Origin: a virus | Length of the DNA: 32,133 bases | Reading direction: 5' to 3' (one strand) | Virus record (IMG/VR): IMGVR_UViG_3300028536_000031 | Coordinates: 1-32,133 of that record | Part shown: positions 5,086 through 30,474 of the stretch, in pieces | How the letters are laid out: the number at the start of each line of letters is the position of its first letter | Position numbering within the stretch: the stretch's first letter is position 1 | Made by a program: the position numbers and the translations under genes | The notes under the pieces: generated by a model | Told to the model about the DNA's origin: nothing | What the model saw: only the letters and a program-made list of their open reading frames with translations | The model's database searches: none

Positions 5086-5613
5086 CTACGACGCCCTTCG
5101 TATCACGGTCTGTCCAGTTTCAGTCACGAGCCGATAGTTCATCGGCAATTCGCCTTTCTTCCCGGCCGCCGCCATCAGGTCCATGGCGTTGTGCTGGCCC
5201 TTCGTCGCCTTGGCGTCGGCGAACGCGGCGGCCGCGACGTTCGCTCGAGTCTGGTTGCCCGCGAAGAACTCTCGCGCCTGCGGGACCATGTTGCCGGCGG
5301 ATGCCGCAAGCTCCTTGGCGTCGCGCTCCATCTGCTCGATCGCCTCGCGCTCCTCGCGCGGGCGCACCGGCGTCTTGGCGGCGATGTCGCCTTCACGCAT
5401 GTTGTCGTTGAAGTCGGACATGCCATAGTCCTCCTCCATGATCTGCTGGGTGACATCGACGGCCTTGCCCTTGGTGGTGCCGATCGCGAACGACTTGGGC
5501 GTCCACACCAGCACCTGCTTGCAGTAGGGACAATCAGGATCGGGGTCGTTCGACTCGCAGGTGACGTCGAAGACTTCCTGGCACTCGTTGCAGCGGTACG
5601 TTCTCAAAATCAT
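5086..5613 (-). CDS. Zinc-ribbon protein between terminase and portal
   Basis: The product is 175 residues from ATG 5613, which overlaps the terminase stop as ATGA (5610-5613). The N-terminus holds two CxxC pairs (YRCNECQ at about 6-12, DPDCPYCKQ at about 25-33), a four-cysteine zinc ribbon like the FmdB/zf-RINGv class of small regulators. The rest is charged, helical and Ala-rich, with a basic end. An upstream in-frame ATG at 5625 would add four residues but sits inside the terminase coding end. A role in packaging or head assembly is inferred from position. Confidence 0.75.
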   Translation of the reverse strand: MILRTYRCNECQEVFDVTCESNDPDPDCPYCKQVLVWTPKSFAIGTTKGKAVDVTQQIMEEDYGMSDFNDNMREGDIAAKTPVRPREEREAIEQMERDAKELAASAGNMVPQAREFFAGNQTRANVAAAAFADAKATKGQHNAMDLMAAAGKKGELPMNYRLVTETGQTVIRRAS

Positions 5614-8438
5614 CGCATCCCCCACGCCCGCGCCACCTCGTCGTCCGAGCGCTGCTCCTCTTTTTTCTTAAAAAAATTCTGAATGATGGCATCCACGAGC
5701 GTGTGGCCTGGGTTCTCAAGCGCCGCGCGCTCGGCCCGCACCACTGACTCATAGGTGAGATTGTTGGCGATCATGTTGGGCCTGATCCAATCGATGTACG
5801 CCTTGTGGGCGAGCGCGGTCGCAAACACGCGGTCGTCCTTGTTGCGGCCACTCGCCTCGATCGACGAGCCGTCTTGTATCACGGTTTCCATCTCCTGCAG
5901 AAGCGGCACCGAGCGCAGGCGCAGGTGACGCAGCGAGTAGGCGTCGCGCATCTGGTTGAGGATGAGAATCTTGTTGTCAGCGGTGGTGTTGTGGGTCGGG
6001 ATCATGCCATCGCCCGCGAGGTAGAGGTGAGACGGGCTGTCGACCTGGATGCACCTGACGGCGACCGATTGAACCTCCTCGATCTTGACGATGTTGTGCC
6101 AGCGCTTGCGGTGCGGCGCCGTGCTGGCGTTAACGACAGCCATCTTGCGGGACAGCTTGAACACCGGCAGGTCGCCCACGGCGAACCAGAACTGATAGGC
6201 GGGCTCGCACACGCTCTGCCCGCCACCGTAATTCAGAACGCGATGCCGCACGCAGTGTTTTGCCTTCAGGCCCAGCGTTCGCAGCAACTCGGCAAAGCCA
6301 GCGGCGAGCCGCTGGCTCGATGTCGTAAAGGAACACTGCCGACAACCCACCCGCGCGTTGCCGTCGGTGTCCATCAATCCCTGCAGCAACGCGAGCCGCT
6401 GGCCGAATGACGCGCGCAGATAGGCGGGCGGTATGTGCTTGTTTTGCAGGAGGTTGGTTCCCCTCAGGAGGACCGTCAAATCCTGGATGCTCTGCCGACA
6501 ACAGGTCCGGTCCTCCGCAATGCCGCCCAGCACTGCACCTCGCGCGCGCAAGTTGTCGCCAATCTCCTCGATGTCCTCGGCGCACGCATAAAACCGACCA
6601 GCATCCGACGCGCCATCGCCAAGCCATACGCCCAGCACGTAGGGATCGATGGGCAGTGCCCTGCCCGAAAGCGCCAGCGGGCCGGCAATCCGAAGCTTGT
6701 ACTTCCCGACTTTGAGTTGCGAGGTCTTGCGCAGCTTCTGCACGCGCCCGTAGCCCCAGTTCTTCCTGAGGTGGCGATGGACCGGCCACAGGTGATCCTC
6801 ATCGGCCACGATCTGCGTGCCGTCATCGAACGTCAGGCGATAGCACTTGTGGTTGATCTGGATCGGCGACACGCCGGTCACCGTGCAGGGCGATCCGTTG
6901 TCATCAATCAGCGCATCTCCAACGCGGACATCGCCCATCGTGGTCCAGCCGTCCGGCGTCGGTAACGGCGTGTCGAGGCCCAAACACTTCCATCCATACG
7001 CGTAGCCCGCCCCGAGCGAGTCCGGCCGGTGGTAGAGATACCAGCGCGTGGCCGAGAACACGTCGTCCATGCGCCGCTCGGCCGCCTGGTCGCGCAGGTA
7101 GCCAGCGTCCATCAACTGCCGCAGGTGCTGCAGCTCGCGCATCACCGCCGGCCCGGGCCCGTTGATCTCAAGGTTGATCCAGACGTTCTTGTAGGAGCCC
7201 GCCATATGGGCGAGCACCCAGGCCACCTGGTAGGTCTCGGGCACATCAGTCGCGTACTCGGCGACCTGAATGAGCGCGTCGGCATAGCAGCGGTAGAGCT
7301 CGATGCAGTGCCGGTCCTTCAAGTCTGAGCGCCCATAGGCTGGATCCACCCCCACCACGTAGATGCCGTTGGGATGCGGGTCCTCCCAGATGCGCAGCTC
7401 GGTGTCGCGCGCGCGGGTCACCTGCTCCAGCTCGGTCTGCATGAAGTTGTCGGTCATGCGATAGCAGTAGCCCTTGAAGGCGATCTGCTCGCGCCGGATG
7501 AACGCAATGTCGTCCGCCGCGCGCCTGGCCGGAAAGAACGACTTGCCGGACTCGATGAATGCCTGCTCGGCGGTCCAGGGATATTCCTGGTTCATCAGGT
7601 CCTCGTCGCCGATCTTCACCGTGCGCATCCAGCGATGCCACACGATCTGCTCGGGCGCGATCTCGACGCCGTATCGCTTCTTCACCGCGCGCGCCAGCAC
7701 CTCCTCGCCCGGGTCGAGCTTGCCGGTCCAGTATTCCTTGAAGCGCGCATCGTCGCGCGCGACCGCGTAGTCCTCCTTCGCCCACCACCCGATGAAGAAC
7801 GCCTTCTGGGTGTGCACGTCCTCGACCGCGTCGTTCCACATCTCCCAGAACAGGTTCTTGCCGCGTGCCGTACTCTCGAACACGTACAGCCGATCCGGGT
7901 GCTTCTGCGCGAGCGACGCCATCATGGAGGCGACGCCCTCCTCCGAGCCCCAGCTCGAGCACTCGGTGCCGTGCACGAAGTTCCACGCCCGCGACCGCGC
8001 CATGATGGCGGCGCCAGCCTTGCGCGTGCCGGCGACCACGTAGTCGAGCACCGACCCGTTCGCCAACACGAGGTTCGATCGATTGTTCTTGACGACACCG
8101 GCGCGCAGCCGCCGCGGCAACGACGCGATGTAGCGCTCCAGCAGAATCCGGAACTTGTCGCGGTTGCCCTCGGTGTCGGTGATCAGCGCACCCTGCAGGC
8201 CCTCGTGCACCGAGAGCCAGAACAAATCCATCGCGAGCGAGACGGTCGAGATGCCGAGCTGCCGCGCCTTCAAACAAACGAAGTGCCGGACGCCACGGTC
8301 GAGCCCCTCGCACACCTCCTGCAAGAACCGCTGCTGGCTTCCGTACAGCCGCAACGGCGAGACGCCCGTCTCCTTGCTGTCGATGGTGAGATGCTCGATG
8401 AACTCAAGAAACAGCCCGAGCCAGTGCTGCGCAGTCAT
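5610..8438 (-). CDS. terL: Terminase large subunit interrupted by an intein
   Basis: The precursor is 942 residues. Removing the intein (485-817) leaves a 609-residue packaging motor, normal for TerL. The ATPase part has a Walker A-like KARQLGISTV (57-66), a Walker B-like HGTECSSW with E159, and a coupling-type FESTARGKN (188-195). The nuclease part has VVGVDPAYG with D365 and a final acidic pair, D868-D869, in KDDRVFATALAHKAY. TerL cuts the concatemer and pumps DNA through the portal. The start ATG overlaps the stop of the preceding gene (ATGA at 8435-8438), and the stop overlaps the zinc-ribbon start. No small terminase is recognisable nearby. Confidence 0.92.
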   Translation of the reverse strand: MTAQHWLGLFLEFIEHLTIDSKETGVSPLRLYGSQQRFLQEVCEGLDRGVRHFVCLKARQLGISTVSLAMDLFWLSVHEGLQGALITDTEGNRDKFRILLERYIASLPRRLRAGVVKNNRSNLVLANGSVLDYVVAGTRKAGAAIMARSRAWNFVHGTECSSWGSEEGVASMMASLAQKHPDRLYVFESTARGKNLFWEMWNDAVEDVHTQKAFFIGWWAKEDYAVARDDARFKEYWTGKLDPGEEVLARAVKKRYGVEIAPEQIVWHRWMRTVKIGDEDLMNQEYPWTAEQAFIESGKSFFPARRAADDIAFIRREQIAFKGYCYRMTDNFMQTELEQVTRARDTELRIWEDPHPNGIYVVGVDPAYGRSDLKDRHCIELYRCYADALIQVAEYATDVPETYQVAWVLAHMAGSYKNVWINLEINGPGPAVMRELQHLRQLMDAGYLRDQAAERRMDDVFSATRWYLYHRPDSLGAGYAYGWKCLGLDTPLPTPDGWTTMGDVRVGDALIDDNGSPCTVTGVSPIQINHKCYRLTFDDGTQIVADEDHLWPVHRHLRKNWGYGRVQKLRKTSQLKVGKYKLRIAGPLALSGRALPIDPYVLGVWLGDGASDAGRFYACAEDIEEIGDNLRARGAVLGGIAEDRTCCRQSIQDLTVLLRGTNLLQNKHIPPAYLRASFGQRLALLQGLMDTDGNARVGCRQCSFTTSSQRLAAGFAELLRTLGLKAKHCVRHRVLNYGGGQSVCEPAYQFWFAVGDLPVFKLSRKMAVVNASTAPHRKRWHNIVKIEEVQSVAVRCIQVDSPSHLYLAGDGMIPTHNTTADNKILILNQMRDAYSLRHLRLRSVPLLQEMETVIQDGSSIEASGRNKDDRVFATALAHKAYIDWIRPNMIANNLTYESVVRAERAALENPGHTLVDAIIQNFFKKKEEQRSDDEVARAWGMR
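5988..6986 (-). mobile_element. Intein with LAGLIDADG homing endonuclease inside terL
   Basis: The 333 in-frame codons begin with Cys1 (CLGLDTPLPTPDGWT, block A). They contain a block B-like stretch with H65 (VADEDHLW) and end with IPTHN, the block G His-Asn pair, after CIQVDSPSHLYLAGDG (block F). The first C-extein residue is Thr. Two LAGLIDADG motifs, PYVLGVWLGDG (115-125) and LLQGLMDTDG (200-209), show a homing domain that looks intact. All residues needed for class 1 splicing are visible. The insertion point, GWK/TTADNK, lies in the nuclease half of TerL, after the DPAYG motif and before the last acidic pair, not in the P-loop. Confidence 0.95.
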
Positions 8439-9923: not shown

Positions 9924-10706
9924 TCATTTTTTCTCCGTGGTTTGTAGTTCCTGTTTTTCCACTGCGTTTGAGGCGGCTGGCGGTGGTGGCTGGCTACGCC
10001 CCCAGGCGCGGCGTGTGCGTTCGGCTGCCGCAGCGTCGCTTGCTCGGCGGCGTTCGAACGTTGCCTCCAGCTCGGCGCGTGTGAGTTCGCTCGGCGGCTT
10101 CGGCGGTGTGGCTGCTGGCTCTGAATCAGGCGGGCGAGTGAGCGCGCCCCCACGCAGCGCTGTAGCGAGCTCGCCCGCCGGTTTGTCTTGGTTTTGCTGG
10201 GTTTCCTCGGGGGTCGCGCGCGCGGCTACAGACTCAGAAGAAGTAAGATTCTTAATGTGGTTGTGGTTGTGTATCCTATTGCTGGGATTTTGCTGTTCGT
10301 TTGCTGGCCCGTTTGGTTGATCATTTGCTAGCGTTTTGCTTGGTGGTTTGCTCACCATTTGCTTTGGTGTTTGCTTGATCTTTGCGACGGCCGAGTGGAA
10401 GCCTCCCTTTGCTCCGGCGATTTTTCGCTTCACGCTCACAGCGTCAGCCTTCGCGAGTTCCTTGCTCACTCGCTTCTGGGTTCCATCAGGGTTGAAGAAC
10501 CGCTCGATCGGCGCCTTGATCGCGTGCCATCGTTTTGCGGTCAGTTTGGCTATGGCGGCCCGCTCATTGTCGTTCAGAGGGATTACGCCCTCGTGCTCCC
10601 AGCAATGGCCAAGCAGAAGGAAATAGGCACCGTGTTGCTCGGTCGTGAGGTGGCCGGTGTCGCGCAGATAGTCGCCGAAATAGAACGGCATGAAGGCGCG
10701 GCTCAC
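9924..10706 (-). CDS. DUF1376 (YdaU-type) replication-associated protein
   Basis: The first 75 residues (FMPFYFGDYLRDTGHLTTEQ, then HGAYFLLLGHCWEHEG) are a clear DUF1376 domain, found in phage proteins next to replication initiators and helicase loaders. The C-terminal two thirds is low-complexity, rich in Asn, Gln, Pro and Ala, and probably disordered. It starts at GTG 10706, five bases after GGAGG and overlapping the stop of the RHH gene. No helicase or DnaC-type loader follows it, so replication presumably uses host enzymes. That dependency is inferred. Confidence 0.85.
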   Translation of the reverse strand: MSRAFMPFYFGDYLRDTGHLTTEQHGAYFLLLGHCWEHEGVIPLNDNERAAIAKLTAKRWHAIKAPIERFFNPDGTQKRVSKELAKADAVSVKRKIAGAKGGFHSAVAKIKQTPKQMVSKPPSKTLANDQPNGPANEQQNPSNRIHNHNHIKNLTSSESVAARATPEETQQNQDKPAGELATALRGGALTRPPDSEPAATPPKPPSELTRAELEATFERRRASDAAAAERTRRAWGRSQPPPPAASNAVEKQELQTTEKK

Positions 10707-10924
10707 TCCTGCCTCCCCTGCGCCGCGAACAATTTGTGGATGAGCCGCCGCACCACCGCCGCCTTGCTGAGGTTGCGCCCCTTCGCGATCGCGTCGAGCT
10801 GCCGGTACTCATCGGGCGTGAGCCAGATCGAGACGGTGCAGCCGCGAGTGCGGTCAGTGGCGGTGACGCTTCTGCCGTAGGGCTGCTCAATGCTGCGGCG
10901 GCCATTGTTGTGGGGCGCGGTCAT
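10703..10924 (-). CDS. Ribbon-helix-helix (CopG-like) DNA-binding protein
   Basis: This is a 73-residue protein with the short beta strand CTVSIWLTPDEYRQLDAIA and the following helix KGRNLSKAAVVRRLIHKLF, the ribbon-helix-helix fold of small dimeric repressors. It overlaps both neighbours by four bases. It may regulate the leftward operon or plasmid-like replication functions. The target is unknown. Confidence 0.75.
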   Translation of the reverse strand: MTAPHNNGRRSIEQPYGRSVTATDRTRGCTVSIWLTPDEYRQLDAIAKGRNLSKAAVVRRLIHKLFAAQGRQE

Positions 10925-11292
10925 GCGGCGGCCCTGTGGCGATGGGTGTCGACGAGAGCAAAGCCGCCGGTCGCTTGTCCGTGTGCGCCGTGGATGTATG
11001 TGCGGATTGCGAGATCGATCGGCATGAGTTTGCGTCGCAGATTGGAGACGTAGGTGTCGATGTTCTTTGCGGTCATCTCGCGCTCGGTGAGACCCCAGAC
11101 GACGGCGACGATCGCAGCACGGCGGACGGGTGACGGCATGCGACTTGCGAGCACGTGCAGGATTTCAGCTTCACGCGGTTGCAGGCGGAGGCTCGCCCCG
11201 CGCACGGTGATTGTGTTCGTGTCGAGCGAAACGATCACGTCGTTGCTCACAGGAATCGGCTGGCCGCAACATGGGCACTGCATCGGGCTCAC
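10921..11292 (-). CDS. Winged-helix (OmpR/PhoB-type) DNA-binding protein with zinc-knuckle start
   Basis: The product is 123 residues from GTG 11292, five bases after GGAGG and overlapping the previous stop (GTGA). Residues 6-9 form a CxxC pair (CPCC), and the rest is a C-terminal effector-type winged helix: VRGASLRLQPREAEILHVL (about 31-49) and AKNIDTYVSNLRRKL (about 75-89), the recognition helix. No receiver domain is present, so it is a stand-alone DNA binder. Its neighbours are all regulators, suggesting a regulatory cassette. Confidence 0.75.
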   Translation of the reverse strand: MSPMQCPCCGQPIPVSNDVIVSLDTNTITVRGASLRLQPREAEILHVLASRMPSPVRRAAIVAVVWGLTEREMTAKNIDTYVSNLRRKLMPIDLAIRTYIHGAHGQATGGFALVDTHRHRAAA

Positions 11293-11663
11293 GCCGCCCT
11301 CCCCTGGTAGGCCATGCGCGCGTGGCAGGCGCAGTACCGCAACGCCCCATCCGCCGGCAGCGCGCAGAACACAAAATGCCTGTCGCCGAATGGCCAGCGG
11401 CAGTCGCTTGGCTCGAGCTCGATCAATCGCTTCCAGACCGTCGGCGGGGTCAGGTGTGGCGGCATGGCCAGCGCGGGCGCCGGCTGGCGTGGCGGTCGTC
11501 CGGTTTTAATCTCGTGGCTTCGAGTCGCCAGTTTGAGCCGCCGCACCTTTCCCATGATGGTGGCGCGTGTCACGTCCAGGCGCTCGGCGATGGTGCCCCC
11601 GCTTAATCCTGCGGTCCAGTCGTCGCGCAGTTGCTGCGTCCGCTTGGCTGTCCACTCGCTCAT
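11289..11663 (-). CDS. gcrA: GcrA-like cell-cycle regulator homologue
   Basis: This 124-residue protein has the two halves of GcrA. The N-terminal helix-turn-helix is GLSGGTIAERLDVTRATIMG (20-39) followed by KVRRLKL. The C-terminal part has a CRWPFGD signature (about 88-94) and the conserved FCALPADGALRYCACHARMA. GcrA in Caulobacter-type alphaproteobacteria works with sigma70 at promoters carrying methylated GANTC sites. The linker is proline-rich. It overlaps rusA and the winged-helix gene by four bases each. A phage copy could redirect host promoters or act on phage promoters. That is inference. Confidence 0.85.
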   Translation of the reverse strand: MSEWTAKRTQQLRDDWTAGLSGGTIAERLDVTRATIMGKVRRLKLATRSHEIKTGRPPRQPAPALAMPPHLTPPTVWKRLIELEPSDCRWPFGDRHFVFCALPADGALRYCACHARMAYQGRAA

Positions 11664-12073
11664 GCTGCCGCCCTCACCTCAATCCGCAGGCGAGGCTTCT
11701 CGCTGTAGATTTTCTCCACCCGGCACGACACCACCTGCTTGTCGTCGCGCCACACGACCTCGTTGAACGCGTCGAGCATCTTGACGAGGTTGTCACAGTC
11801 AGGACGGCTCGTCGGCTTGACCGTGCCTGTGATCGCGTTGGCGCGTTTGCCCTTCGACCAACTCACCGGGATCGGCATGCAAGCGAGCACGTCGACTTGG
11901 AGCGGGCCTTCGATCGGGGTTCGGCCCGCCATCACCTCCTGGGCGGCGAGACGCAGCATCGTCTCATAGGACCGAGTTTGCGCTGGCGTGTAGGCATGGC
12001 CGGTCGAGCGCACGAAGCGCGGTCGACCTTTGCCCCGCGGCTCGCCAGCGAGCTCGATGACGATCGGCGTCAC
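11660..12073 (-). CDS. rusA: RusA-family Holliday junction resolvase
   Basis: The product is 137 residues from GTG 12073, six bases after a GGGAGG site; the longer frame from TTG 12091 lacks such support. Conserved RusA features are GEPRGKGRPRFVRSTGHAYT near the N-terminus and the acidic, metal-binding stretch SRPDCDNLVKMLDAFNEVVW followed by DDKQV. The enzyme resolves branched DNA and would work with the RecT/YqaJ pair of the rightward operon to clean up replication and recombination intermediates before packaging. Confidence 0.9.
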   Translation of the reverse strand: MTPIVIELAGEPRGKGRPRFVRSTGHAYTPAQTRSYETMLRLAAQEVMAGRTPIEGPLQVDVLACMPIPVSWSKGKRANAITGTVKPTSRPDCDNLVKMLDAFNEVVWRDDKQVVSCRVEKIYSEKPRLRIEVRAAA

Positions 12074-12091
12074 GGACGCCCTCCCCGGCAA

Positions 12092-12816: not shown

Positions 12817-13133
12817 CTGTGTGCCTCGCAAAGGATGTCTGTCCATGACGCGATGATCCCCATGCCATTGTCACTGCGGACGATGCAGCGGTCGCGCCCT
12901 GGCAGGCGCGGCATGGAGAGCTCCCCGAGCCCGGCTGTACTGCGGCGTATGGGCCGGGCCCGGGGCAACGCTCGATCGGAGTCACCAGGGAGGAGAGTGC
13001 GATCGAGCGAAAGGCTGGAGTAACGCACTCGTGTGTGGAGTACCTGCGGTTGTAGAGCGCAGATTGATACCCGTGGATGGGAGCCGGGGAGGTCTCCATG
13101 GGTGTTGTGATTGCGTTTCGGCGCCGCCGTCAT
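12813..13133 (-). CDS. Possible small regulatory-region gene, start uncertain
   Basis: An ATG at 13133 overlaps the HTH stop (ATGA) five bases after GGAGG, and the frame runs 106 codons to overlap the next GTG. Those overlaps look genuine. However, the first two thirds have random-looking composition and contain a strong inverted repeat. The last 33 codons, from ATG 12911 after a GGGGAG site, have GC-rich third positions (MPRLPGRDRCIVRSDNGMG and onward). Either the whole or only the 33-residue part is real. No family is recognised. Confidence 0.4.
   Translation of the reverse strand: MTAAPKRNHNTHGDLPGSHPRVSICALQPQVLHTRVRYSSLSLDRTLLPGDSDRALPRARPIRRSTAGLGELSMPRLPGRDRCIVRSDNGMGIIASWTDILCEAHR
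12969..13009. repeat. Perfect 10-bp inverted repeat with GAGTC in the spacer
   Basis: CGCTCGATCG (12969-12978) and CGATCGAGCG (13000-13009) are exact inverse copies with a 21-base spacer. A GAGTC site, the GANTC methylation sequence of alphaproteobacteria, begins the spacer (12979-12983). The repeat is close to the switch and to GcrA-like and GapR-like genes. It might be an operator or part of an origin. Its function is unknown. Confidence 0.55.
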
Positions 13134-13342
13134 GCGCGCGCCTCCGCTTTGTCGGTGGTTGAGAGGGATTCAAAGGTGATGCCCTCGCGACCCAACTCTT
13201 CAGCTAATTGCACGATAGCCAGCCAGCGCTTAGGCGGAATTCCGCGATCTCGCCAAACGCTGACGGTTGGCGGCTCCAACCCAAGCGCCGCCGCAACTTT
13301 GCCGGTGCCGCCGAGTTCGTCGATGACCGAGTCCCATGTCAT
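13130..13342 (-). CDS. Small HTH regulator (carph-isopro-like), Cro-type candidate
   Basis: The 70-residue product from ATG 13342 contains IDELGGTGKVAAALGLEPPT and VSVWRDRGIPPKRWLAIVQL, a helix-turn-helix with the RGIPPKRW element of carph-isopro domain proteins seen in phage Cro/CI-like regulators. No ribosome binding site precedes the ATG. The -10 of the upstream promoter ends at 13350-13351, so the transcript should begin at or within a base or two of the ATG and would be leaderless. It is the first gene of the leftward operon, divergent from the XRE repressor gene. Confidence 0.85.
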   Translation of the reverse strand: MTWDSVIDELGGTGKVAAALGLEPPTVSVWRDRGIPPKRWLAIVQLAEELGREGITFESLSTTDKAEARA

Positions 13343-13349
13343 GGGCGGC

Positions 13350-13379
13350 AATGTAATTTGCGATTTGCAAATTTGTCAA
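13350..13379 (-). promoter_or_regulatory. Leftward promoter overlapped by operator
   Basis: On the minus strand TTGACA (13379-13374) is followed after 17 bases by TTACAT (or after 18 by TACATT). The spacer contains the operator TTTGCAAATCGCAAA. The element matches the rightward promoter at 13754-13779 in 25 of 26 positions. It should drive the HTH gene and the leftward operon and be shut off by a bound repressor. Confidence 0.75.
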
Positions 13380-13397
13380 GCGTTTGCATCCTGTAAA
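13357..13397. promoter_or_regulatory. Left operator pair
   Basis: TTTGC-GATTT-GCAAA (13357-13371) is a dyad with 5-bp arms lying inside the leftward promoter. TTTGC-ATCCT-GTAAA (13383-13397) is the same dyad with one mismatch, 26 bases away centre to centre. They lie between the divergent HTH and XRE genes. The binding protein is probably one of those two regulators. Confidence 0.7.
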
Positions 13398-13433
13398 GCG
13401 ACCGGCCGGTGCCTTTCTGCTGAAATCCTGGTT

Positions 13434-13712
13434 ATGGCCAAGGCCCGCACCCAGGCGATTGATGCAACCGCCCGCCGTTTGAAGGCGACACGGCTGGCGC
13501 TCGACTACAAGAAGCAGATCGAGTTCGCCAAAATCCTTGGGGTCGACAAAAGCAGCTACAACCTCATGGAAAAGGGCAAAAGGCCAGTGACCTTAGATGT
13601 CGGTCTGGCGCTCAATGAGAAATTTGGCATTAGCCTCGATTGGCTCTTTGTGGGCAATGCCGCCCAGCTACCCGCGCACCTGATCACAAAACTGGTCTCG
13701 CGCGCAGCCTGA
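13434..13712 (+). CDS. XRE-family repressor, CI-like candidate
   Basis: The 92-residue product from ATG 13434 has a basic N-terminus and a helix-turn-helix (IEFAKILGVDKSSYNLMEKG, about 38-57, then KRPVTLDVGLALNEKFGI) in the usual XRE layout, with a short tail that may dimerise. There is no CI-type autoproteolysis domain, so induction would need an antirepressor or another signal. No ribosome binding site or convincing plus-strand promoter is visible upstream. The gene is bracketed by the two mirror-image promoters, which is the layout expected of the lysogeny repressor. Confidence 0.85.
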   Translation: MAKARTQAIDATARRLKATRLALDYKKQIEFAKILGVDKSSYNLMEKGKRPVTLDVGLALNEKFGISLDWLFVGNAAQLPAHLITKLVSRAA

Positions 13713-13730
13713 CCGGGGTTTCACAGTACA

Positions 13731-13776
13731 TTTGCACATTGCAAATATTCTGATTGACAGATTTGCAAATCGCAAA
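13731..13776. promoter_or_regulatory. Right operator pair
   Basis: TTTGC-ACATT-GCAAA (13731-13745) is a dyad with 6-bp arms (TTTGCA/TGCAAA), and TTTGC-AAATC-GCAAA (13762-13776) is the exact reverse complement of the left operator. Their centres are 31 bases apart, about three helical turns, which suits cooperative binding on one face of the DNA. The second lies inside the rightward promoter. Confidence 0.75.
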
Positions 13777-13783
13777 TTATAGT
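13754..13783 (+). promoter_or_regulatory. Rightward early promoter overlapped by operator
   Basis: TTGACA (13754-13759) is followed by TTATAG after 17 bases, or TATAGT after 18. The spacer is the operator. Transcription should begin near 13790 and give a leader of about 17 bases holding the GGAGG site of the first gene (ATG 13807). This is the strongest sigma70-like promoter I see in the window. Confidence 0.8.
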
Positions 13784-13806
13784 GCCCTCCATCAACGGAG
13801 GGCGCC

Positions 13807-14217
13807 ATGCAGCAATCGACCAGCCAAGCCCGTGGAGCGCTTCATTCGGCGCCCCCCTGCGCCACTGTCATAGGCGACGACATCATCGCAGCGCTGGCCA
13901 CGGCTCGGCTGCCGTCGGGCGCTCTGGTGCCGGATTCCCCGGACCTGCGCGCCATCTACCGGCGCATTGATGCGGAAGCCATCCGGCTCGGCGCCGAGAT
14001 GGCCGCAGCTTTCGATATCGACAACCTGCTCTCGCAGTCGGGATCGACGTGGCTGAAGTGCTTTTGCCGCGACATCGGACAGGCGCTAGCGACCGATCCG
14101 CGCCTTGCCGCGCTCCCAGCGCTGCGCAGTTGGGTGCATTCCGAGCGTTCTGGTCCTGTCTGCGGCACGCATGTGAACTGGTACGCCGTCCTGCTCCGCG
14201 CGGTGGTGCGGCCATGA
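13807..14217 (+). CDS. First gene of the rightward operon, hypothetical
   Basis: The product is 136 residues, preceded by GGAGG six bases upstream of ATG 13807. After a short disordered start it is helical (LRAIYRRIDAEAIRLGAEMA) with scattered cysteines and a hydrophobic C-terminus. I do not recognise the family. As the first gene after the repressed promoter it is expected to be among the earliest expressed, where phages often place host-takeover or antirepressor functions. That is inference. It overlaps the next gene as ATGA. Confidence 0.65.
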   Translation: MQQSTSQARGALHSAPPCATVIGDDIIAALATARLPSGALVPDSPDLRAIYRRIDAEAIRLGAEMAAAFDIDNLLSQSGSTWLKCFCRDIGQALATDPRLAALPALRSWVHSERSGPVCGTHVNWYAVLLRAVVRP

Positions 14218-15229: not shown

Positions 15230-15591
15230 ACGCGGTGATTGAGTATTTCTTTGGCCGCCCCGCGCCGGAGCCCTTGCCCGAGCCGTTCTGGCGCAACCGC
15301 ATCCCGCAAATGAGGAGGGAGGAGTCCATGAGCGATGTTGAGCAAGCGATCAAACAAATGGGGCGACGCGACTTTGAGCATCCGCGCGACCTGGACCGGG
15401 GCCGCCCGCCGCTCCAGATCCCCGAAACTCCGGACCTGTTCGCCGACGGGCTGGAGATCGCGCAGTCCGTCCTCGACTGGGAGGAGCGCGCCGGGCAGCC
15501 GATCGCGCCGCTGATCGAGCACATCAAGGCGGCACAGCAGTTGCGTAAGAGCATCGTGGCGAAAGCCGAGGATAACGGGAGCACATCATGA
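15226..15591 (+). CDS. Hypothetical early protein with a second in-frame start
   Basis: The full product is 121 residues from ATG 15226, with GGAGG six bases upstream. A second ATG at 15328 stands after GGAGGAG at good spacing, in the same frame, so an 87-residue shorter form beginning [19 protein letters not shown] is possible. The first 34 residues contain [14 protein letters not shown]. The C-terminal part is helical and ends in Lys- and Ser-containing sequence. I do not recognise the family. Confidence 0.6.
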
Positions 15592-16229
15592 AGTTCGACA
15601 TTCTCAACCGCATCACAGGCAAGGTCCAATTCATCGCCGAAATCGACTGCGCCGAAGACACATCGCGTGAAATCAAGGTCGGTCTGGCAGTCAAGTGGGG
15701 CATCAAAGTGTGCGCCGACCTCGCGGACGCCGACCTCGCGCGCGCCAACCTCGCGCGCGCCAACCTCGCGGGCGCCGACCTCGCGGACGCCAACCTCGCG
15801 GGCGCCAACCTCGCGGGCGCCGACCTCGCGGGCGCCAACCTCGCGGACGCCGACCTCGCGGGCGCCAACCTCGCGGACGCCGACCTCGCGGGCGCCCTGA
15901 AAATCAAAAACGAGGAAATCCCTTCGATCCCCAAGATCGACAGCGTCATCCTGGGCGAGATCGAGAAGAAAGGCGGCACGCTCGACATGTCCTGTTGGCA
16001 CGGCCCTGAGGGATGGTGTGGCACAACGCACTGCCGCGCTGGCTGGGCCGTGCATTGTGCCGGCAAACCCGGGAAGGCACTGGAGGACAAGGTCGGCACG
16101 CAGAGCGCAGCGATGCTGATCTATCAGAAATCGCGCCCCGGGCAGCGATTGCCGTGGTTCTTTGCGCCGGAAGAAAAGGCGATGGCGGATCTCCGCAAGT
16201 GTGCTGCCGAGCAGGAGGTCAGCACATGA
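15588..16229 (+). CDS. Pentapeptide-repeat protein with conserved Cys/Trp C-terminal domain
   Basis: The product is 213 residues. Residues 43-102 are 12 consecutive A-(D/N)-L-A-x repeats, which fold as a right-handed quadrilateral beta helix, often a DNA mimic that binds gyrase in the Qnr/MfpA class. The C-terminal domain holds [20 protein letters not shown] and AMLIYQKS, a conserved accessory domain found with such repeats in phages. Whether this one inhibits gyrase is not known; in a phage it might protect or redirect host gyrase. It overlaps both neighbours by four bases. Confidence 0.85.
15714..15893 (+). repeat. 12 tandem 15-bp units encoding the pentapeptide repeat
   Basis: The unit GCC-(G/A)AC-CTC-GCG-(G/C)(A/G)C recurs 12 times without a break. 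Codons at constant positions are identical in every copy. The near identity suggests recent slippage expansion, in contrast to older pentapeptide proteins whose codons have diverged. The tract is open in several frames on both strands because its length is a multiple of three. Confidence 0.9.
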
Positions 16230-17763: not shown

Positions 17764-18702
17764 ATGACAATGCCTGATCCAACCAAGCAAACGCTCTCGG
17801 CGACGCAGACGCCCGCACTGTTCGGCGCCTCGCCCTATCTCACGCGCTGGATGCTGTTGCGCCATTTCATCCACGGCGACCCGATCGATGGCCCCGCGCA
17901 CAACCGGATGGATTGGGGCAAACGCATGCAGCCGCTCATCCTCGCGCAGGCGGCTGAGGACCTGCACCTGGAGGTCCGGCCGAACGCGGATGACGCCTAC
18001 GTGCGCCGCGGCCTTCTCGGCTGCACGCGCGACGCGATCGTCATCTGCCCTGATCGCGGCCCGGGCGCGCTCGAATGCAAGGCCGTGTTCGATTACGGCG
18101 TATGGATGACGACCTGGGATGGCGGCAAGACGCCGCCCAAGCATGTCGAGATTCAGACCCAGCAGCAGATGATGGTCGGCGATGATTCGCAATCATTCAC
18201 TTGGGGCGTCATCGCGGTGTGGGTGTGCGGCGAGATGAAGTATTTCGAGCGCAAGCCGATCGATGATCTATGGGTCGAGATCATCGAGGCGGCGGCAGAG
18301 TTCTTCGACGACGTCGCCGCGAGGCGCGAAGGTGATCCGTTCGGTGATCCGGTCGAGATGCCGCTGCTCAACGCGCTGTTCCCGATCAAGGCCGGGAAAG
18401 TGATCGACCTGACCAACGAGCCGAACGCCGAGCACCTCGCCGAGGAGGTCAAGATGTGGGCGTGGCACGCCGCCCAGCAACGTGGTCACCAGAAGGGCGC
18501 AGACGCCATAAAGGCAAAGATGAGGGCACTGATCGGCAATGCCCAGGAGGCGCGCCTCCCGCACGGGGTCGTGGTGCGCGCCAAGCAGCAGAGCCGCAAG
18601 GGGTACACCGTCGCGCCCACCACCTTCACCGTGCTTGATCCGTTTGTGCCTGAGGGTGCGTCAACGTCGGCGCCGGGCGCGAACATTCTTGCGGGAGGCT
18701 GA
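17764..18702 (+). CDS. YqaJ-type (lambda exonuclease-like) viral recombinase
   Basis: This 312-residue PD-(D/E)xK nuclease has MDWGKRMQPL (49-58), G86-C-T-R-D90, ECK (E104, K106) and VEIQTQQQMMV (128-138), the ordered motifs of the YqaJ/lambda Exo family. It resects one strand from DNA ends to expose single-stranded DNA for annealing by RecT, encoded next. Together with rusA it supplies a complete phage recombination set. The start is ATG 17764 or the in-frame ATG at 17770; neither has a strong ribosome binding site. Confidence 0.88.
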   Translation: MTMPDPTKQTLSATQTPALFGASPYLTRWMLLRHFIHGDPIDGPAHNRMDWGKRMQPLILAQAAEDLHLEVRPNADDAYVRRGLLGCTRDAIVICPDRGPGALECKAVFDYGVWMTTWDGGKTPPKHVEIQTQQQMMVGDDSQSFTWGVIAVWVCGEMKYFERKPIDDLWVEIIEAAAEFFDDVAARREGDPFGDPVEMPLLNALFPIKAGKVIDLTNEPNAEHLAEEVKMWAWHAAQQRGHQKGADAIKAKMRALIGNAQEARLPHGVVVRAKQQSRKGYTVAPTTFTVLDPFVPEGASTSAPGANILAGG

Positions 18703-18705
18703 GCC

Positions 18706-19701
18706 GTGGCGAACGAGCTTGTCGTCATCGAGCGGCAATTGCAGGCGGTCGAGCCGCGGCTCCACAGTGCGCTCGGCGGCATGATGCCGACCAAGCGGCT
18801 GATCCAAACCGTGCTCGTGTCATGCGAACGCACGCCCAAGCTGCTGGCTTGCCGGCCGCAGTCTATCCTGAATGGCGCGATGACGTTCGCCGTGCTCGGG
18901 CTTCCTGTCGACGGCACGACTGGTCAAGGCTTTCTGCTGCCCTTCAAGGAAACGGCACAGGCGGCCATCGGCTACAAGGGCTACAACACGCTAGGCGCGC
19001 GGGCGAGTCTGACGATCACGGGCGCCGCCGTGCGCGAGGACGACTATCTGTTCGATTATCTGCTCGGCGACAAAGCCTTCGTCTCCCACAAGCCGCGGCT
19101 CGGCAGCAGCGCGAAGATCATCGCATTCTGGGCAGTCGCTGCCGCCGAGGATCGCCCGCCGATCGTCGCCATTCTCTCGATGAGCGATGTGATGGCGATC
19201 AAGGATCGGTCGCCGGCCGTCCGCGGGAACGCCGACACGCCTTGGAACGATCCGCACATCGGCTTCATCGCGATGGGCGAGAAGTCGGCCAAGCGCCGGC
19301 TCGCGCGCTCAACGCCGCTCATCACCGAGGCGCCGCAGTTCATGATGGGGGCGCGCATGGAGGAGGCGTTCGACGAGCAGGGCAAGACGTCGTGGATATC
19401 GCCCGAGCGTGGCGTCGTCGTCGAAGGCGACTATGCAACGCAGCCGACGTATCAGCCAGTCGAGACACCGACCGCACAGCAATTGATTTCGCCGCCCGCC
19501 CCCTCTGCGGCAACGGCCCCCTCTGTGTCCCAGGGTGGGGCGGGCGAGACTCTCTCGTTTGAGGCGATGGCGCGCGAGGCCGCAACACGTGGCCGCGATG
19601 TGTTCAACGGCTTCTATAAGGCGCGCACGGGCCCCGAGCAAAAACGCCTGCGTGAGATGAAGCCGGAGCTTGAAGCGCTTATGCCGGAGGCAACGCCATG
19701 A
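18706..19701 (+). CDS. recT: RecT-family single-strand annealing protein
   Basis: The product is 331 residues from GTG 18706, seven bases after GGGAGG. The core shows RecT features: ERTPKLLACRPQSILNGAMT (about 41-60), LPVDGTTGQGFLLPFKET, AIGYKGYNTLGARASLTITG and a central FWAVAAAEDRPPIVAILSMS. The C-terminal 80 residues are low-complexity and then helical. It binds the single strands made by the preceding exonuclease and anneals them, supporting recombination and concatemer formation. Confidence 0.9.
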   Translation: MANELVVIERQLQAVEPRLHSALGGMMPTKRLIQTVLVSCERTPKLLACRPQSILNGAMTFAVLGLPVDGTTGQGFLLPFKETAQAAIGYKGYNTLGARASLTITGAAVREDDYLFDYLLGDKAFVSHKPRLGSSAKIIAFWAVAAAEDRPPIVAILSMSDVMAIKDRSPAVRGNADTPWNDPHIGFIAMGEKSAKRRLARSTPLITEAPQFMMGARMEEAFDEQGKTSWISPERGVVVEGDYATQPTYQPVETPTAQQLISPPAPSAATAPSVSQGGAGETLSFEAMAREAATRGRDVFNGFYKARTGPEQKRLREMKPELEALMPEATP

Positions 19702-19904
19702 CCGTGAACCTCGATCATCAGATCGCCGAGGTAGCGCGCGAACTCGCTTTGCGCTCGCGAGTCTATCCGGGCCTGGTCGCCAAAAAGAAGATGCACCAGA
19801 GCGAGGCCGACGAGCACACGCGGCGCATGGAGGCGGTGCTTGAGACGTTAAAGTCTCTGATGCCCAGCCCAAATTGGCCGGCCCCGAAGGGAGACAAGAA
19901 ATGA
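19698..19904 (+). CDS. Small helical phage protein of 68 residues
   Basis: The ATG overlaps the recT stop. The product (MTVNLDHQIAEVARELALRS and onward) is a charged helical protein with a proline-lysine tail. Similar small proteins follow recombination genes in many Rhizobiales phages in my judgement. The function is unknown. It overlaps the next gene. Confidence 0.65.
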   Translation: MTVNLDHQIAEVARELALRSRVYPGLVAKKKMHQSEADEHTRRMEAVLETLKSLMPSPNWPAPKGDKK

Positions 19905-20149
19905 CCGACGAGCCAAAGAAGATTGATCGAGACACCTACCTCAAGGCGCTTGGACTATTCACGTTGGCGCACCAGCACAGTCTGAAGACATACGAGTTTG
20001 AAGCCGCCATGTTGGCCATGATTGGGCTTGACGCGGAGGACGCCAGGATCGGCGGAAGCCATATCTCCGCTGCAATTTACTCCACCGACGAAAAGGTCGA
20101 CTTCAATGAAGTGCTGAAACGGGACGGTTACATCGTGGAATCTCCTTAA
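19901..20149 (+). CDS. Hypothetical protein of 82 residues
   Basis: ATG 19901 overlaps the previous stop. The product begins MTDEPKKIDRDTYLKALGLF, is mostly helical and acidic, and has a C-terminal stretch STDEKVDFNEVLKRDGY. No family is recognised. Confidence 0.6.
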   Translation: MTDEPKKIDRDTYLKALGLFTLAHQHSLKTYEFEAAMLAMIGLDAEDARIGGSHISAAIYSTDEKVDFNEVLKRDGYIVESP

Positions 20150-20192
20150 CTTCCGCCACAGGGCAGCAACCAATGAAATCAAAGGCTGAATA

Positions 20193-20660
20193 GTGACCGT
20201 CACCCTGTACACGATGGAGGAGACCGCCGCGAAGCTGCGGATGAGCCGCCGCAGCCTGCAGGCGTGGCTTGCCGAGCACCCGACCGATGAGGCAGGTTTG
20301 CCCTTCTACGTGCCGAATGGAAATCGCAAGCTATTCGCCGATACCGACATCGCCCGCATCGAGGCAGCAAAGCGGGAGCAGGAGGCGCGTCGCCTCAGGG
20401 AGGCAGCACAGGAGGCAGCACAATGCCGTGGAAACTCGTCCCGCCCCGCCCGCCGAAGACACGTGTCTACTACATCCGGGGGAAGTACCTGGGAATCAGA
20501 CTTAACCACAGCACGGGAGCTAGCGAGGCGAACGCGGCGCGGCGGATCATCGCGACGTGGCGCAAGCAAGCCGAACGCGGCGAGTTCAAGCTCCCCGGAA
20601 AACAGCCAGACCAGGAACGTAGTGCCCCTACCTTCGCGAACGCAGCCACCGCGTACATGA
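20193..20660 (+). CDS. Excisionase-like MerR/AlpA-type HTH protein
   Basis: From GTG 20193, the first 77 residues (YTMEETAAKLRMSRRSLQAW, then PFYVPNGNRKLFADTDIARI) form a small winged helix-turn-helix like Xis/AlpA. The frame does not stop there: it runs on for about 78 more residues into the integrase gene, giving 155 residues and a 238-base overlap. That tail is Ser/Arg/Thr-rich and looks like a by-product of integrase coding. A lost stop or an unusually overlapped xis-int pair is likely. Its place directly before int supports a directionality-factor role. Confidence 0.65.
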   Translation: MTVTLYTMEETAAKLRMSRRSLQAWLAEHPTDEAGLPFYVPNGNRKLFADTDIARIEAAKREQEARRLREAAQEAAQCRGNSSRPARRRHVSTTSGGSTWESDLTTARELARRTRRGGSSRRGASKPNAASSSSPENSQTRNVVPLPSRTQPPRT

Positions 20661-21553
20661 GGGCGAACGGCGATGGGACGTATCTCGATCCGATCCTGGC
20701 GGCGTGGCCCAACAAGCTGTTGGCGGACATTGATCAGATTGAGATCGATGCAGTGGCGGACAAGCTCTACCCCTTGGGCACGCCTCAGACCCGGAACCGT
20801 CAAGTCTACACCCCGATATCCGCGGTCCTCAAGCACGTCGGGATCGAGAAGAAGATCAAGCGCCCCAAGGGCTGGGCCGGGAATAAATCAACGTCGTGGC
20901 TCGAACCCGATCAAGCGTTCGCGGTGTTCGAGGCAGCAGACAAGATCGATGCCGAGTTCGGGTTACTGTGCCGCTTCCTGCTCTACACCGGATTGCGCCT
21001 GGGCGAGGCGCTGTCCCGGCGTCTGCGTGATCTGCGGCTGATCCGCTCCTACCTCTACCTCCCGGACTCAAAGAACGGCGAGCCGCGCGGCTGCCACCTG
21101 CCGCCGTTCCTAGTAACCGCCTTCTGTGCGCAGCCGCCGCGACCGTTGGCGCCGCCGATCATCCGAGACGAGAGCGGATGCTTCGTCAACGGAGGATGGA
21201 ACCTTGAAGATGGCGGCGTGCCGTTCCTTGAGCGCAGCCCAGATGCGAAGCTATTCCGTTTCCACAAGGGCAGCGTGCTCTACGCCATGCTCAGGGCGAC
21301 CTGGAAGGCGGCGGGCCTCAGTTTCCCGCGCCGACAGGCCGGGTTTCACCTATTCTGTCATACGTACGGATCATGGATGCACCGCTATGGCGCTCTCGAC
21401 ACGCATGGGCTTACGCGCACCGGGCGCTGGGTCGATCCCGATTCCGCCGACCGCTATGTTCACACGCAGCAGAGCGAGGAGGCGCGCCGCGCGGATCGAC
21501 TCCCGACGCCGAATGGCGGAGTCCTCGTCGAGTTCAAGCCGAAAACGGGCTAA
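20423..21553 (+). CDS. int: Tyrosine integrase with altered box II arginine
   Basis: The product is 376 residues with an N-terminal arm/SAM-like part and a C-terminal catalytic domain. Box I is TGLRLGEAL with R192, and the nucleophile is Y345 in RYVHT. The central box reads H309-L-F-C312-H: the arginine of the usual HxxRH is a cysteine, TGT instead of CGT, a single C-to-T change. Start ATG 20423 follows GGAGGCAGCACA. The gene lies next to the tRNA-derived att site and is the last gene of the rightward operon. Activity may be reduced or lost. Confidence 0.9.
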   Translation: MPWKLVPPRPPKTRVYYIRGKYLGIRLNHSTGASEANAARRIIATWRKQAERGEFKLPGKQPDQERSAPTFANAATAYMRANGDGTYLDPILAAWPNKLLADIDQIEIDAVADKLYPLGTPQTRNRQVYTPISAVLKHVGIEKKIKRPKGWAGNKSTSWLEPDQAFAVFEAADKIDAEFGLLCRFLLYTGLRLGEALSRRLRDLRLIRSYLYLPDSKNGEPRGCHLPPFLVTAFCAQPPRPLAPPIIRDESGCFVNGGWNLEDGGVPFLERSPDAKLFRFHKGSVLYAMLRATWKAAGLSFPRRQAGFHLFCHTYGSWMHRYGALDTHGLTRTGRWVDPDSADRYVHTQQSEEARRADRLPTPNGGVLVEFKPKTG

Positions 21554-27478: not shown

Positions 27479-30474
27479 TACTCACCCTCTTTCGGCAACC
27501 ATGACGGCCATTGCGGCGGTTTCTTCATGAAGCGGCCACCGCCTGGCTGCCCTGCTTTAACGCGCCAGCCGGAGCTGGTAAGCTCATAGGTGATGCCGCT
27601 GCGAACCATTGTGGGAGGGCCTGATGAGCCAGACGGAGACGCGCTTGGTGCAGGCGATACTGGCGGTGCAGTTGGTGGCGACACTGGCGCTGGTGGCGTG
27701 GGCGGACTTGGCAACTCTCCCGTGGGTGATTTGGGCGGCGGGAAGTGCTGCGGGCCTAGTTTGGGCCTCATGGAGAGATTCTTCCGACCCGCGCCAAGAC
27801 CTCCTGCCAGAGCGTTCGCTCCCACAATCGGAGCAACTTCAGTAAGCCAGTAGAGCGGGTCTCGTACACGCGCCTGCGCGGCCTCCTTGTCGGCTCCGCT
27901 CGGCAGTTTCAAATCCAAGTAGGTCGGAGCATAGGCCGCGCCGAACCCTTCGACCGCGCCACCCAAACCACCGACAGCAGCCGCGCCTGCAGCGTTCTTG
28001 ATCCTCGATCCTGGCATTTTCCCCGTCAAATACGAGAACACAGGACTTGCGAGCGCGGCGCCGCCGAAAACGCCAGGATACTTTTTGCTCAACGATGTCT
28101 CGCGCTGGCGCCGCTCCATCTCGTCGGCGAGCGCCTGCTCGCGATCCGACTTCTGTTCTGCCCGGAGTTGCACAAGGCGCAGGGTGTCTGGCGCATCTGG
28201 AGCATTGAGTTTCGTGAGGTTTTCGATCACCTGTTTTTGTGTGCCGGGAGGAGATTTCGTGGTTGTCGTGCCAAGCTGAGTGATCTTGTCGGCGCGATCC
28301 TGAATGCGCTTCTCGATCGCGGTTATCTCTTTGGTGCGATCCTTGTTGTTGTCTTCCCAGTTGAATGGTTTATCGCCCGCTTGCGTCCCGACCGTGAGCC
28401 CGAGCGTGGTGAGCAACCCGGCCATCGTCTTGGGCGCCGCCGCGATGGCGCGCGCCAAGAGTTGTTCCGGCGCCGCATAGGTCCCGCCCGCCGCGAGCAG
28501 CATTTGTGCCGCGTGCTCGGGCGTGATGTCGGCACGGCCGCGGGTCGGGCGGGTCGCCTCCTGCGTGCGGATCATCGCGAGCTCGCCGGGGCTCCTTTGC
28601 TCGTAGCCCGGCAGCGCGCGCGTCATCGGCTCGGCTTCCGGCGGCGCCGGCCCCGATCCCATCATGCGCAACAACGAATCGATATCGTGGTTCGGAACGA
28701 CTTCCGAGCCCGGGGGCAGGTTCACGATTTCAGGGCCGCTCTCACCGACCACGGCCTGCCCTCCCGGTGACACGCCGCCCTCCTGATAGTGCGGCACACC
28801 CTGTTGACCTTGGCTCAAGAGTAGCGAGCGCAGGGTTTGCTCTTTGACCCCTGGCATCGCATCGAGAGCATGAACGAGCCAGTCCGGCTGCCAGTCACCA
28901 CGCTTCGTCCCCTGCACGGGCTTTGAGAGAAGCGCGCGACCGGCCAGTCCGGGCGCGAATGGAGCTCCAGCCAGACCGACAGCGCCGGGAATGTCTCCCG
29001 CCGCCAGGTGGCTGGCGCCCAGCCCGAGCCCGAGCGGGATCGACGATATCAGGGCCCGCTCCGCGGTCTGCGATGTCGGGATCGGGGCGAGGATTTCGTT
29101 GGCCGCATGCGCCAGTTCCGACAAATCGCCACGGCCCGCCGCATATTGGATTTTCCGGTCGTCACTGCTGGTTAGTATCTGTCGGAGCTTTTGCGGAGAG
29201 ATATGACCGGCCGCCGCGCCCTCACCGGGGCCCGAAACAGCACGGCTGATCACCAGCATGTTGTACCATTGGCGCCGCGCCTCCTTGAGTTCGCCCAGCG
29301 CCTTTCTCATCCCCTTTCCTTCCTGGGTCCCGCGGCCAGTTGCTGTGTGCTCCAGCGCATCGTCCAGAATCGATCGGAGCCGCGTTGCGTAATAGCCCAC
29401 GTTCGGGTCGGGATCGTCGATCGCGCGCGCAAGCGGTGTCTCGTGCCGCGTGAGCGCCTGATAGGTCTTTCCAGGCATCACTGGGACTTCGCCCGGCTTT
29501 CCGGCCACAAAGCCCTGCGCCAGGTTTCGCGCTTGTTGAATAAGGCGGTTGGTCGTCTCGTTTGGGAGTCCCTCCTTGAGCAGGTCCTGCGTCCACGCCT
29601 GGATATCGTCGAAGTACTTCTGGTTGGCAGACGTGGTGCCGCCAACGCGCAAGTCGCGGGCGGTCCGTTCAAACGCACCACCGATCCTCGCTCGCGCTTC
29701 TTCAATCACCTCTGGCGTGGCGCGCGTCGCCTTGGCGCCCATGCGCCGATTGACTGCGGCGGTGAACTCGTCGGCGATCCGATCAATCTCGCGCCGTCCG
29801 GCACCGCCCGCGCCAACCGCTGTGCCCAGCGTCCCTTCGGCGCGGCGCATCGCTTCGCTGCCGGTCACTTGCCCGACCGTCGGCTTGATGCCCTCTTTCT
29901 TGAGCACATCGAGCGCACGCTGCCGCTCTGGTGCGACGACCGATGGGTTGAGCATGCGCAGGATCGACGGGAAAGAGCCGCCAAGAATGCCCCCGAGAAA
30001 GCGGGCTACCCCCTCGCCTTTGCCGCCCGCGAAAGCCTGCCCGGCCGCTTCCGACCCGACCGCAGCCGCCGTGTTCCCGATGACTTTGCCGACAGGGCCG
30101 CCTGGGCCGACATAGCCGAGCGGATTGCCAAGAAACTCTCCGATTGTTTCGCCAAATCGGCCGGCGCGCGTCTCCGGTTTATGAAGGGGGCCGGTCACGC
30201 CTTCCACCGCACCGACGATGCTCTCCCTTCCCGGAAGGCCGAGCGTCTGCCCAAGGGTGCGACTACTCGCGCCAGCGGCTTGAGCAGCTTTGGTGGCACC
30301 AGGTATCGCCAGGTCGTCAGGCAACGACTCAATCCCGGCGCCAAGGCCGCCGACCGCACCGCGTGGAAGAGACTTGAAAAAATCGGCGGTGCCGGACGGC
30401 TTCTTGACCTCAGCCGCGCCCCAGTCTTCGGGCGTCGACTTCGGCACAGCACCCCATGCTTCTGGATCGGCCAT
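27478..30474 (-). CDS. Large internal virion (DNA-ejection) protein candidate
   Basis: This is a 998-residue protein. Short DP.AWGA-type repeats at the N-terminus (EAWGAVPKSTPEDWGAAEV) are followed by Gly/Ala-rich helices, a long charged helical region, the motif VVGESGPEIVNLPPGSEVVP (also seen in tape-measure-like virion proteins), glycine-zipper hydrophobic segments (AAAVGGLGGAVEGFGAAY) and a Pro-rich linker before a small beta domain. The length, zipper segments and place beside other virion genes suggest an ejected internal protein that helps DNA cross the envelope. The start at 30474 has a weak ribosome binding site. Confidence 0.7.
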   Translation of the reverse strand: MADPEAWGAVPKSTPEDWGAAEVKKPSGTADFFKSLPRGAVGGLGAGIESLPDDLAIPGATKAAQAAGASSRTLGQTLGLPGRESIVGAVEGVTGPLHKPETRAGRFGETIGEFLGNPLGYVGPGGPVGKVIGNTAAAVGSEAAGQAFAGGKGEGVARFLGGILGGSFPSILRMLNPSVVAPERQRALDVLKKEGIKPTVGQVTGSEAMRRAEGTLGTAVGAGGAGRREIDRIADEFTAAVNRRMGAKATRATPEVIEEARARIGGAFERTARDLRVGGTTSANQKYFDDIQAWTQDLLKEGLPNETTNRLIQQARNLAQGFVAGKPGEVPVMPGKTYQALTRHETPLARAIDDPDPNVGYYATRLRSILDDALEHTATGRGTQEGKGMRKALGELKEARRQWYNMLVISRAVSGPGEGAAAGHISPQKLRQILTSSDDRKIQYAAGRGDLSELAHAANEILAPIPTSQTAERALISSIPLGLGLGASHLAAGDIPGAVGLAGAPFAPGLAGRALLSKPVQGTKRGDWQPDWLVHALDAMPGVKEQTLRSLLLSQGQQGVPHYQEGGVSPGGQAVVGESGPEIVNLPPGSEVVPNHDIDSLLRMMGSGPAPPEAEPMTRALPGYEQRSPGELAMIRTQEATRPTRGRADITPEHAAQMLLAAGGTYAAPEQLLARAIAAAPKTMAGLLTTLGLTVGTQAGDKPFNWEDNNKDRTKEITAIEKRIQDRADKITQLGTTTTKSPPGTQKQVIENLTKLNAPDAPDTLRLVQLRAEQKSDREQALADEMERRQRETSLSKKYPGVFGGAALASPVFSYLTGKMPGSRIKNAAGAAAVGGLGGAVEGFGAAYAPTYLDLKLPSGADKEAAQARVRDPLYWLTEVAPIVGANALAGGLGAGRKNLSMRPKLGPQHFPPPKSPTGELPSPPTPPAPVSPPTAPPVSPAPSASPSGSSGPPTMVRSGITYELTSSGWRVKAGQPGGGRFMKKPPQWPSWLPKEGE

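Follow-up and report, generated by a model that had tools for sequence, protein, structure and literature searches.

In phage lambda, the immunity region is ordered cro-OR-cI-OL, with outward promoters that carry embedded operators, a leaderless cI and an OR2 site at about -42. The number of operators varies among phages with a lambda-type switch. A bench-tested switch has been described in CP-933P, a cryptic prophage of E. coli O157:H7, in which PaaR2, a short CI without the peptidase motif, and YdaS, the Cro of the system, bind overlapping operators between their genes (PMC8630535). The paaR2 mRNA was shown experimentally to be leaderless, as is lambda cI mRNA. A further promoter beyond the repressor operon, PL933P, shares identical -35 and -10 sequences with PR933P; it also carries operators of a similar kind, and PaaR2 and YdaS each repress it (PMC8630535).

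Here, we describe a locus that, as far as its sequence tells, is closely similar to the PaaR2/YdaS switch of CP-933P (PRM933P, PR933P and PL933P), the closest system tested at the bench. The DNA analysed, hereafter the window, is a virus record of 32,133 bases, which, judged by its gene content, is a temperate tailed phage. The leftward arm (minus strand, 9924-12091) encodes a RusA resolvase, a GcrA-like protein and a DUF1376 primosomal protein, with terminase and head genes next, and the rightward arm (plus strand, 17764-21553) encodes a YqaJ/RecE-like exonuclease, RecT and a tyrosine integrase. The presence of a GcrA-like cell-cycle regulator (11289-11663, minus strand; 6e-23) within the leftward arm suggests an alphaproteobacterial host. 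Additionally, the early right arm encodes a protein with pentapeptide-type repeats (ADLAxANLA; 15588-16229, plus strand), and the gene of the terminase large subunit (5610-8438, minus strand) contains a putative intein, whose insert starts with CLGLDTPLPTPDGW and ends in HN before the second terminase part.

Predicted operator-bearing promoters flank the repressor gene on both sides

The features assigned to the control region and to the rightward arm, with regulatory roles predicted, are as follows.

13130-13342, minus strand: cro-like gene, 70 aa, opening the leftward operon (replication/RusA, then packaging)
13350-13379, minus strand: P_cro (PR-like) promoter, TTGACA, 18 nt, TACATT, then 7 nt to the cro ATG
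13357-13371: outer-left operator (OR1-like), within the P_cro spacer
13383-13397: inner-left operator (OR2-like), one mismatch
13398-13426, plus strand: predicted repressor promoter (P_RM-like), GCGACC, 17 nt ending in TGC, TGAAAT, 7 nt, ATG
13434-13712, plus strand: XRE repressor gene (CI-like), 92 aa
13731-13745: inner-right operator (OL2-like)
13754-13783, plus strand: P_right (PL-like) promoter, TTGACA, 18 nt, TATAGT
13762-13776: outer-right operator (OL1-like), within the P_right spacer, 31 bp from OL2
13784-13803, plus strand: hairpin GCCCTCC-ATCAAC-GGAGGGC, directly after the P_right -10, its 3' arm being the Shine-Dalgarno sequence of the next gene (13807-14217)
13807-14217, plus strand: first gene of the rightward operon, 136 aa, with no PHROG match
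17764, 18706 and 20423, plus strand: the YqaJ exonuclease, RecT and integrase genes, on the same strand as the gene at 13807-14217

A preliminary description of this DNA had pointed out a 26-bp element in two inverted copies facing outward from an XRE gene. Sequence comparison bears this out: the minus-strand copy (13379-13354, TTGACAAATTTGCAAATCGCAAATTA) and the plus-strand copy (13754-13779, TTGACAGATTTGCAAATCGCAAATTA) are identical at 25 of 26 positions, the likeness extends to 30 of 33 beyond the core, and the 92-codon XRE gene lies between them. No other inverted pair of such quality occurs within the window. The dyad TTTGC-N5-GCAAA is found once in each copy, and a dyad scan recovered the two further sites already reported at 13383-13397 and 13731-13745. 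Across the whole window, five sites with at most one mismatch were counted against 1.04 expected from shuffles; besides these four, the sole additional one, also with one mismatch, lies at 30019.

The element had also been read as a promoter ending in 'TTA'. A promoter scan independently ranked both elements top in the region, as strong outward promoters with 10 of 12 (TACATT) and 11 of 12 (TATAGT) consensus letters. However, the scan prefers an 18-nt spacer followed by TACATT on the minus and TATAGT on the plus strand, so that 'TTA' is no more than the beginning of the -10. Because the XRE gene spans 13434-13712, the segment between the elements also contains the repressor's own promoter.

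The repressor and Cro belong to known families

The 92-aa XRE protein matches HTH_3 (3.9e-9) and Phage_CI_repr (2.3e-5), and its best profile match is the 434 repressor. In line with this, its predicted structure (mean pLDDT 86) best matches a 434 repressor variant, and the P22 c2 repressor is among its ten best matches. No Foldseek E-value was below 0.001, as is usual for small, common folds. Domain search and predicted structure reveal a helix-turn-helix DNA-binding domain only, with no peptidase (C-terminal oligomerisation/autocleavage) domain. On the minus strand, profile matches identify the 70-aa protein as a Cro of the P22-Cro/YdaS family: it scores above the cut-off for Pfam YdaS_toxin and at 1.4e-5 for P22_Cro, and it matches the Cro proteins of Xylella prophages (3bd1, 5w8y) and P22 Cro (1rzs). 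Thus, by profile and predicted fold, the closest solved relatives are the 434 and P22 repressors and the P22 and Xylella prophage Cro proteins, a likeness restricted to the DNA-binding domain.

In each of the seven loci compared below, the repressor frame stays open for about 300 nt further upstream (13077-13433, plus strand, in the window), traversing the operators and lying antisense to cro; this opening is probably a side effect of base composition and operator conservation.

Related loci keep the four-site array at fixed spacing

Searching viral DNA with the promoter/operator pattern retrieved five loci with the same four-site array (L021 to L025), and a sixth, L115, was added through a repressor alignment, giving seven loci with the window. 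L021 and L023 are closely related, so these amount to six fairly independent lineages, window included. Some loci are fragmentary, and arm genes were checked in part of them. The array is kept in all six relatives, whose repressors share 38-44% identity with that of the window. Specifically, every locus has two operators per side; the pair beside cro is spaced 25-26 bp and the right pair 31 bp (32 in L115). Relative to the repressor ATG, the centre of the outer-left operator lies at -70 (-69 in L115) and that of the inner-left operator at -44 throughout. P_cro likewise shows TTGACA, 18 nt, a -10, 7 nt and ATG in all seven, the -10 of L115 being poor in this register (AATGTC), and P_RM follows the pattern NNGACN, 17 nt, TGn-TNNNAT, 7 nt, ATG in each of them. 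These 7-nt distances between -10 and ATG predict that the cro and repressor mRNAs begin at AUG, without a leader.

Protein searches of viral contigs with the window's own XRE or Cro sequence alone returned no matches, and the repressor alignment widened with L115 yielded zero additional loci. A paired-operator scan of a genome collection returned 64 stretches, none with the four-site array; judged by the surrounding sequence, most of them seem to be chance occurrences or repeats of an unrelated kind. XRE relatives were also examined in whole genomes of a single bacterial order, the one to which a Rhizobium locus belongs, and most lacked mirrored elements detectable by a simple test; these negatives mean little because the same test failed to pick up L024 and gave borderline results for L025 and L115. 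Mirrored elements of different sequence were found at L127, the locus of one XRE relative, and in the phage record L034.

Two of the loci have peculiarities of their own. The repressor gene of L023 (1884-2030) carries an in-frame 52-codon gap relative to L021, which removes the helix-turn-helix while all operators are intact; the gap reflects either a naturally occurring, virulent-like variant that lacks a repressor or a mistake in the assembly. L024 carries an extra gene (5973-6416) between the repressor and the right operators, in the place that rexAB occupy in lambda; its small lipoprotein-like product has a signal sequence and LLCGCAS, and no PHROG match.

A lambda-like immunity switch is the probable reading

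Divergent CI-like and Cro-like genes with shared predicted operators between them, and a second operator-bearing outward promoter past the repressor gene that heads the recombination/integration arm, place the region, with a probability of about 0.92, among temperate-phage immunity regions on the lambda plan, the 92-aa XRE protein being the CI-like repressor. The order, as predicted, is cro reading leftward from OR, the repressor reading rightward from it, and then OL leading into the recombination/integrase arm. The mirrored pair, judged by its sequence, is two repressor-controlled promoters around the repressor gene, the classic lambda layout.

In the proposed mechanism, the XRE repressor would bind the TTTGC-N5-GCAAA dyads. 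The outer dyads fall between the predicted -35 and -10 of P_cro on the left and of P_right on the right, so that binding there would block both the replication/lytic and the recombination/integration arms. The repressor's own promoter appears weak, with an extended -10, and the inner-left dyad abuts its -35; by analogy with lambda CI acting from OR2, the repressor therefore probably also activates its own leaderless mRNA from this site. The 70-aa Cro would oppose the repressor, made from a leaderless mRNA starting at the cro ATG. From sequence, conservation, geometry, the concerted operator change and the family assignments, we infer binding, activation, transcription starts and a role in lysis and lysogeny.

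Operator letters change together in L115

In L115, three of the dyads, the outer-left one and the two on the right, have the sequence TTGGC-N5-GCCAA, and the inner-left one has TTGGC-N5-GCAAA. Compared with the TTTGC-N5-GCAAA of the other loci, the change is complete at three sites and half made at the fourth. The recognition helix of the repressor differs as well (DKGDYTKFE in L115 versus DKSSYNLME in the window), with no obvious matching change in the Cro recognition helix. The predicted operators, which overlap the promoters, thus change jointly with specificity, in one event. Because the letters to the left and to the right of the repressor gene are altered in concert, one repressor would read all four sites; this joint change is the best sequence evidence for a single protein there, and, being a single evolutionary event, it supports that reading rather than proving it. 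The earlier proposal that one repressor silences both outward operons thereby gains support, both from the array geometry in six relatives and from the operator change in L115.

An alternative is that the dyads are used by Cro alone, or that Cro and XRE use different, overlapping sites. The footprints of YdaS and PaaR2 in CP-933P do overlap, and two repeat types are seen there (PMC8630535). Use by Cro alone is nevertheless improbable, as is the split arrangement: it is the XRE recognition helix that changes along with the operators in L115, and the inner-left site keeps exactly 44 nt from the XRE ATG in all loci.

The mirrored copies give no support to an invertible cassette

It had also been suggested that recombination between the inverted copies flips the repressor gene, which would make the segment an invertible switch. 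The copies are indeed inverted and nearly identical, and the phage encodes RecT and an exonuclease. Yet the repressor points away from cro in every one of the seven loci, the operator pair next to cro is always the one spaced 25-26 bp and the pair beyond the repressor the one spaced 31-32 bp, and, where arm genes could be checked, RusA falls on the same side as cro, with YqaJ or integrase downstream of the repressor. Additionally, the outer elements of the relatives differ at several positions, which recombination would keep alike, the repeats are only 26 bp long, and no dedicated recombinase gene lies between or adjoining the copies. Inversion would also switch nothing, since an equivalent promoter would stand at each end after flipping. 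With neither both orientations nor a dedicated invertase among the seven loci, the flipping proposal finds no support, and we consider such a cassette very unlikely.

The idea that the element has no bearing on the control of these genes, being a chance or dispersed repeat such as the common genomic repeat foreseen as an objection in the preliminary description, is hardly credible even though single operator pairs turn up in unrelated genomes, mostly by chance: within the window it occurs only here, inside near-consensus promoters, and it belongs to a four-site array conserved at fixed spacing around the repressor genes of six relatives.

A predicted hairpin follows the right promoter

At the equivalent place behind P_right, L021-L025 and L115 also have a hairpin, with letters differing by lineage. 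When the Shine-Dalgarno sequence and the part downstream of it were held fixed, the chance values for the six lineages ranged from 0.0005 to 0.09 with shuffles and from 0.004 to 0.18 with random draws, combining to 1.6e-8 and 2.5e-5, respectively, in tests that are post hoc and assume independence. With a normal start about 7 nt after the -10, the 5' arm would be absent from the P_right mRNA and retained in the read-through repressor mRNA. The Shine-Dalgarno sequence has a predicted exposure of 0-0.25 when the RNA is a read-through product and mostly of 0.2-0.6 when it comes from P_right, with L023 as an exception at some start positions.

The hairpin, with its 5' arm between the -10 and the predicted start of P_right, may act as an RNA lock. 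In a lysogen, P_RM mRNA that reads through would be the only one in which the first right-arm gene has its ribosome site hidden, while P_right mRNA, starting inside the hairpin, would be translated; this folding-based suggestion is tentative, and we hold it somewhat doubtful. In the T4 lysozyme gene e and B. subtilis sigG, a hairpin hides the ribosome site in a long read-through mRNA and the proximal promoter starts inside the hairpin (PMC3014915, PMC5942855). Unlike in those genes, the hairpin here is predicted only and would be coupled to the lysogenic repressor transcript. Such a lock is possibly a new feature, put forward as a plausible hypothesis rather than a finding.

Discussion

As in CP-933P, a short CI-like repressor without peptidase stands opposite a divergent Cro of the YdaS family (gap of 91 bp here versus 97 bp). 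The promoter geometry in all seven loci fits a leaderless repressor mRNA. Given the likeness of PL933P and PR933P, the mirrored pair is an expected feature of this known kind of switch. CP-933P, in contrast, has more repeats per side, of other sequence, and encodes a CII-like YdaT as well as a toxin-antitoxin pair located behind the repressor gene; no such pair and no YdaT was seen at this locus, which has two dyads per side and a cro that also looks leaderless. With lambda, it shares the cro-OR-cI-OL order, operator-embedded outward promoters and an inner-left site at -44, close to OR2 at about -42. Lambda differs in its three operators on each side, against two here, in its CI, which has an oligomerisation/autocleavage domain where the repressor here is short, and in having rexAB.

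Taken together, the locus is a well-formed new example of a known switch type and not a DNA-flipping switch. The switch is clear and compact, its operator code can be read from the sequence (TTTGC-N5-GCAAA versus TTGGC-N5-GCCAA), and the phage group to which it belongs seems to have received little study. From its geometry rules, transcription starts, superinfection groups and perhaps leaderless control genes can be predicted, and the conserved leader hairpin provides a testable case for translational silencing of read-through transcripts in lysogens.
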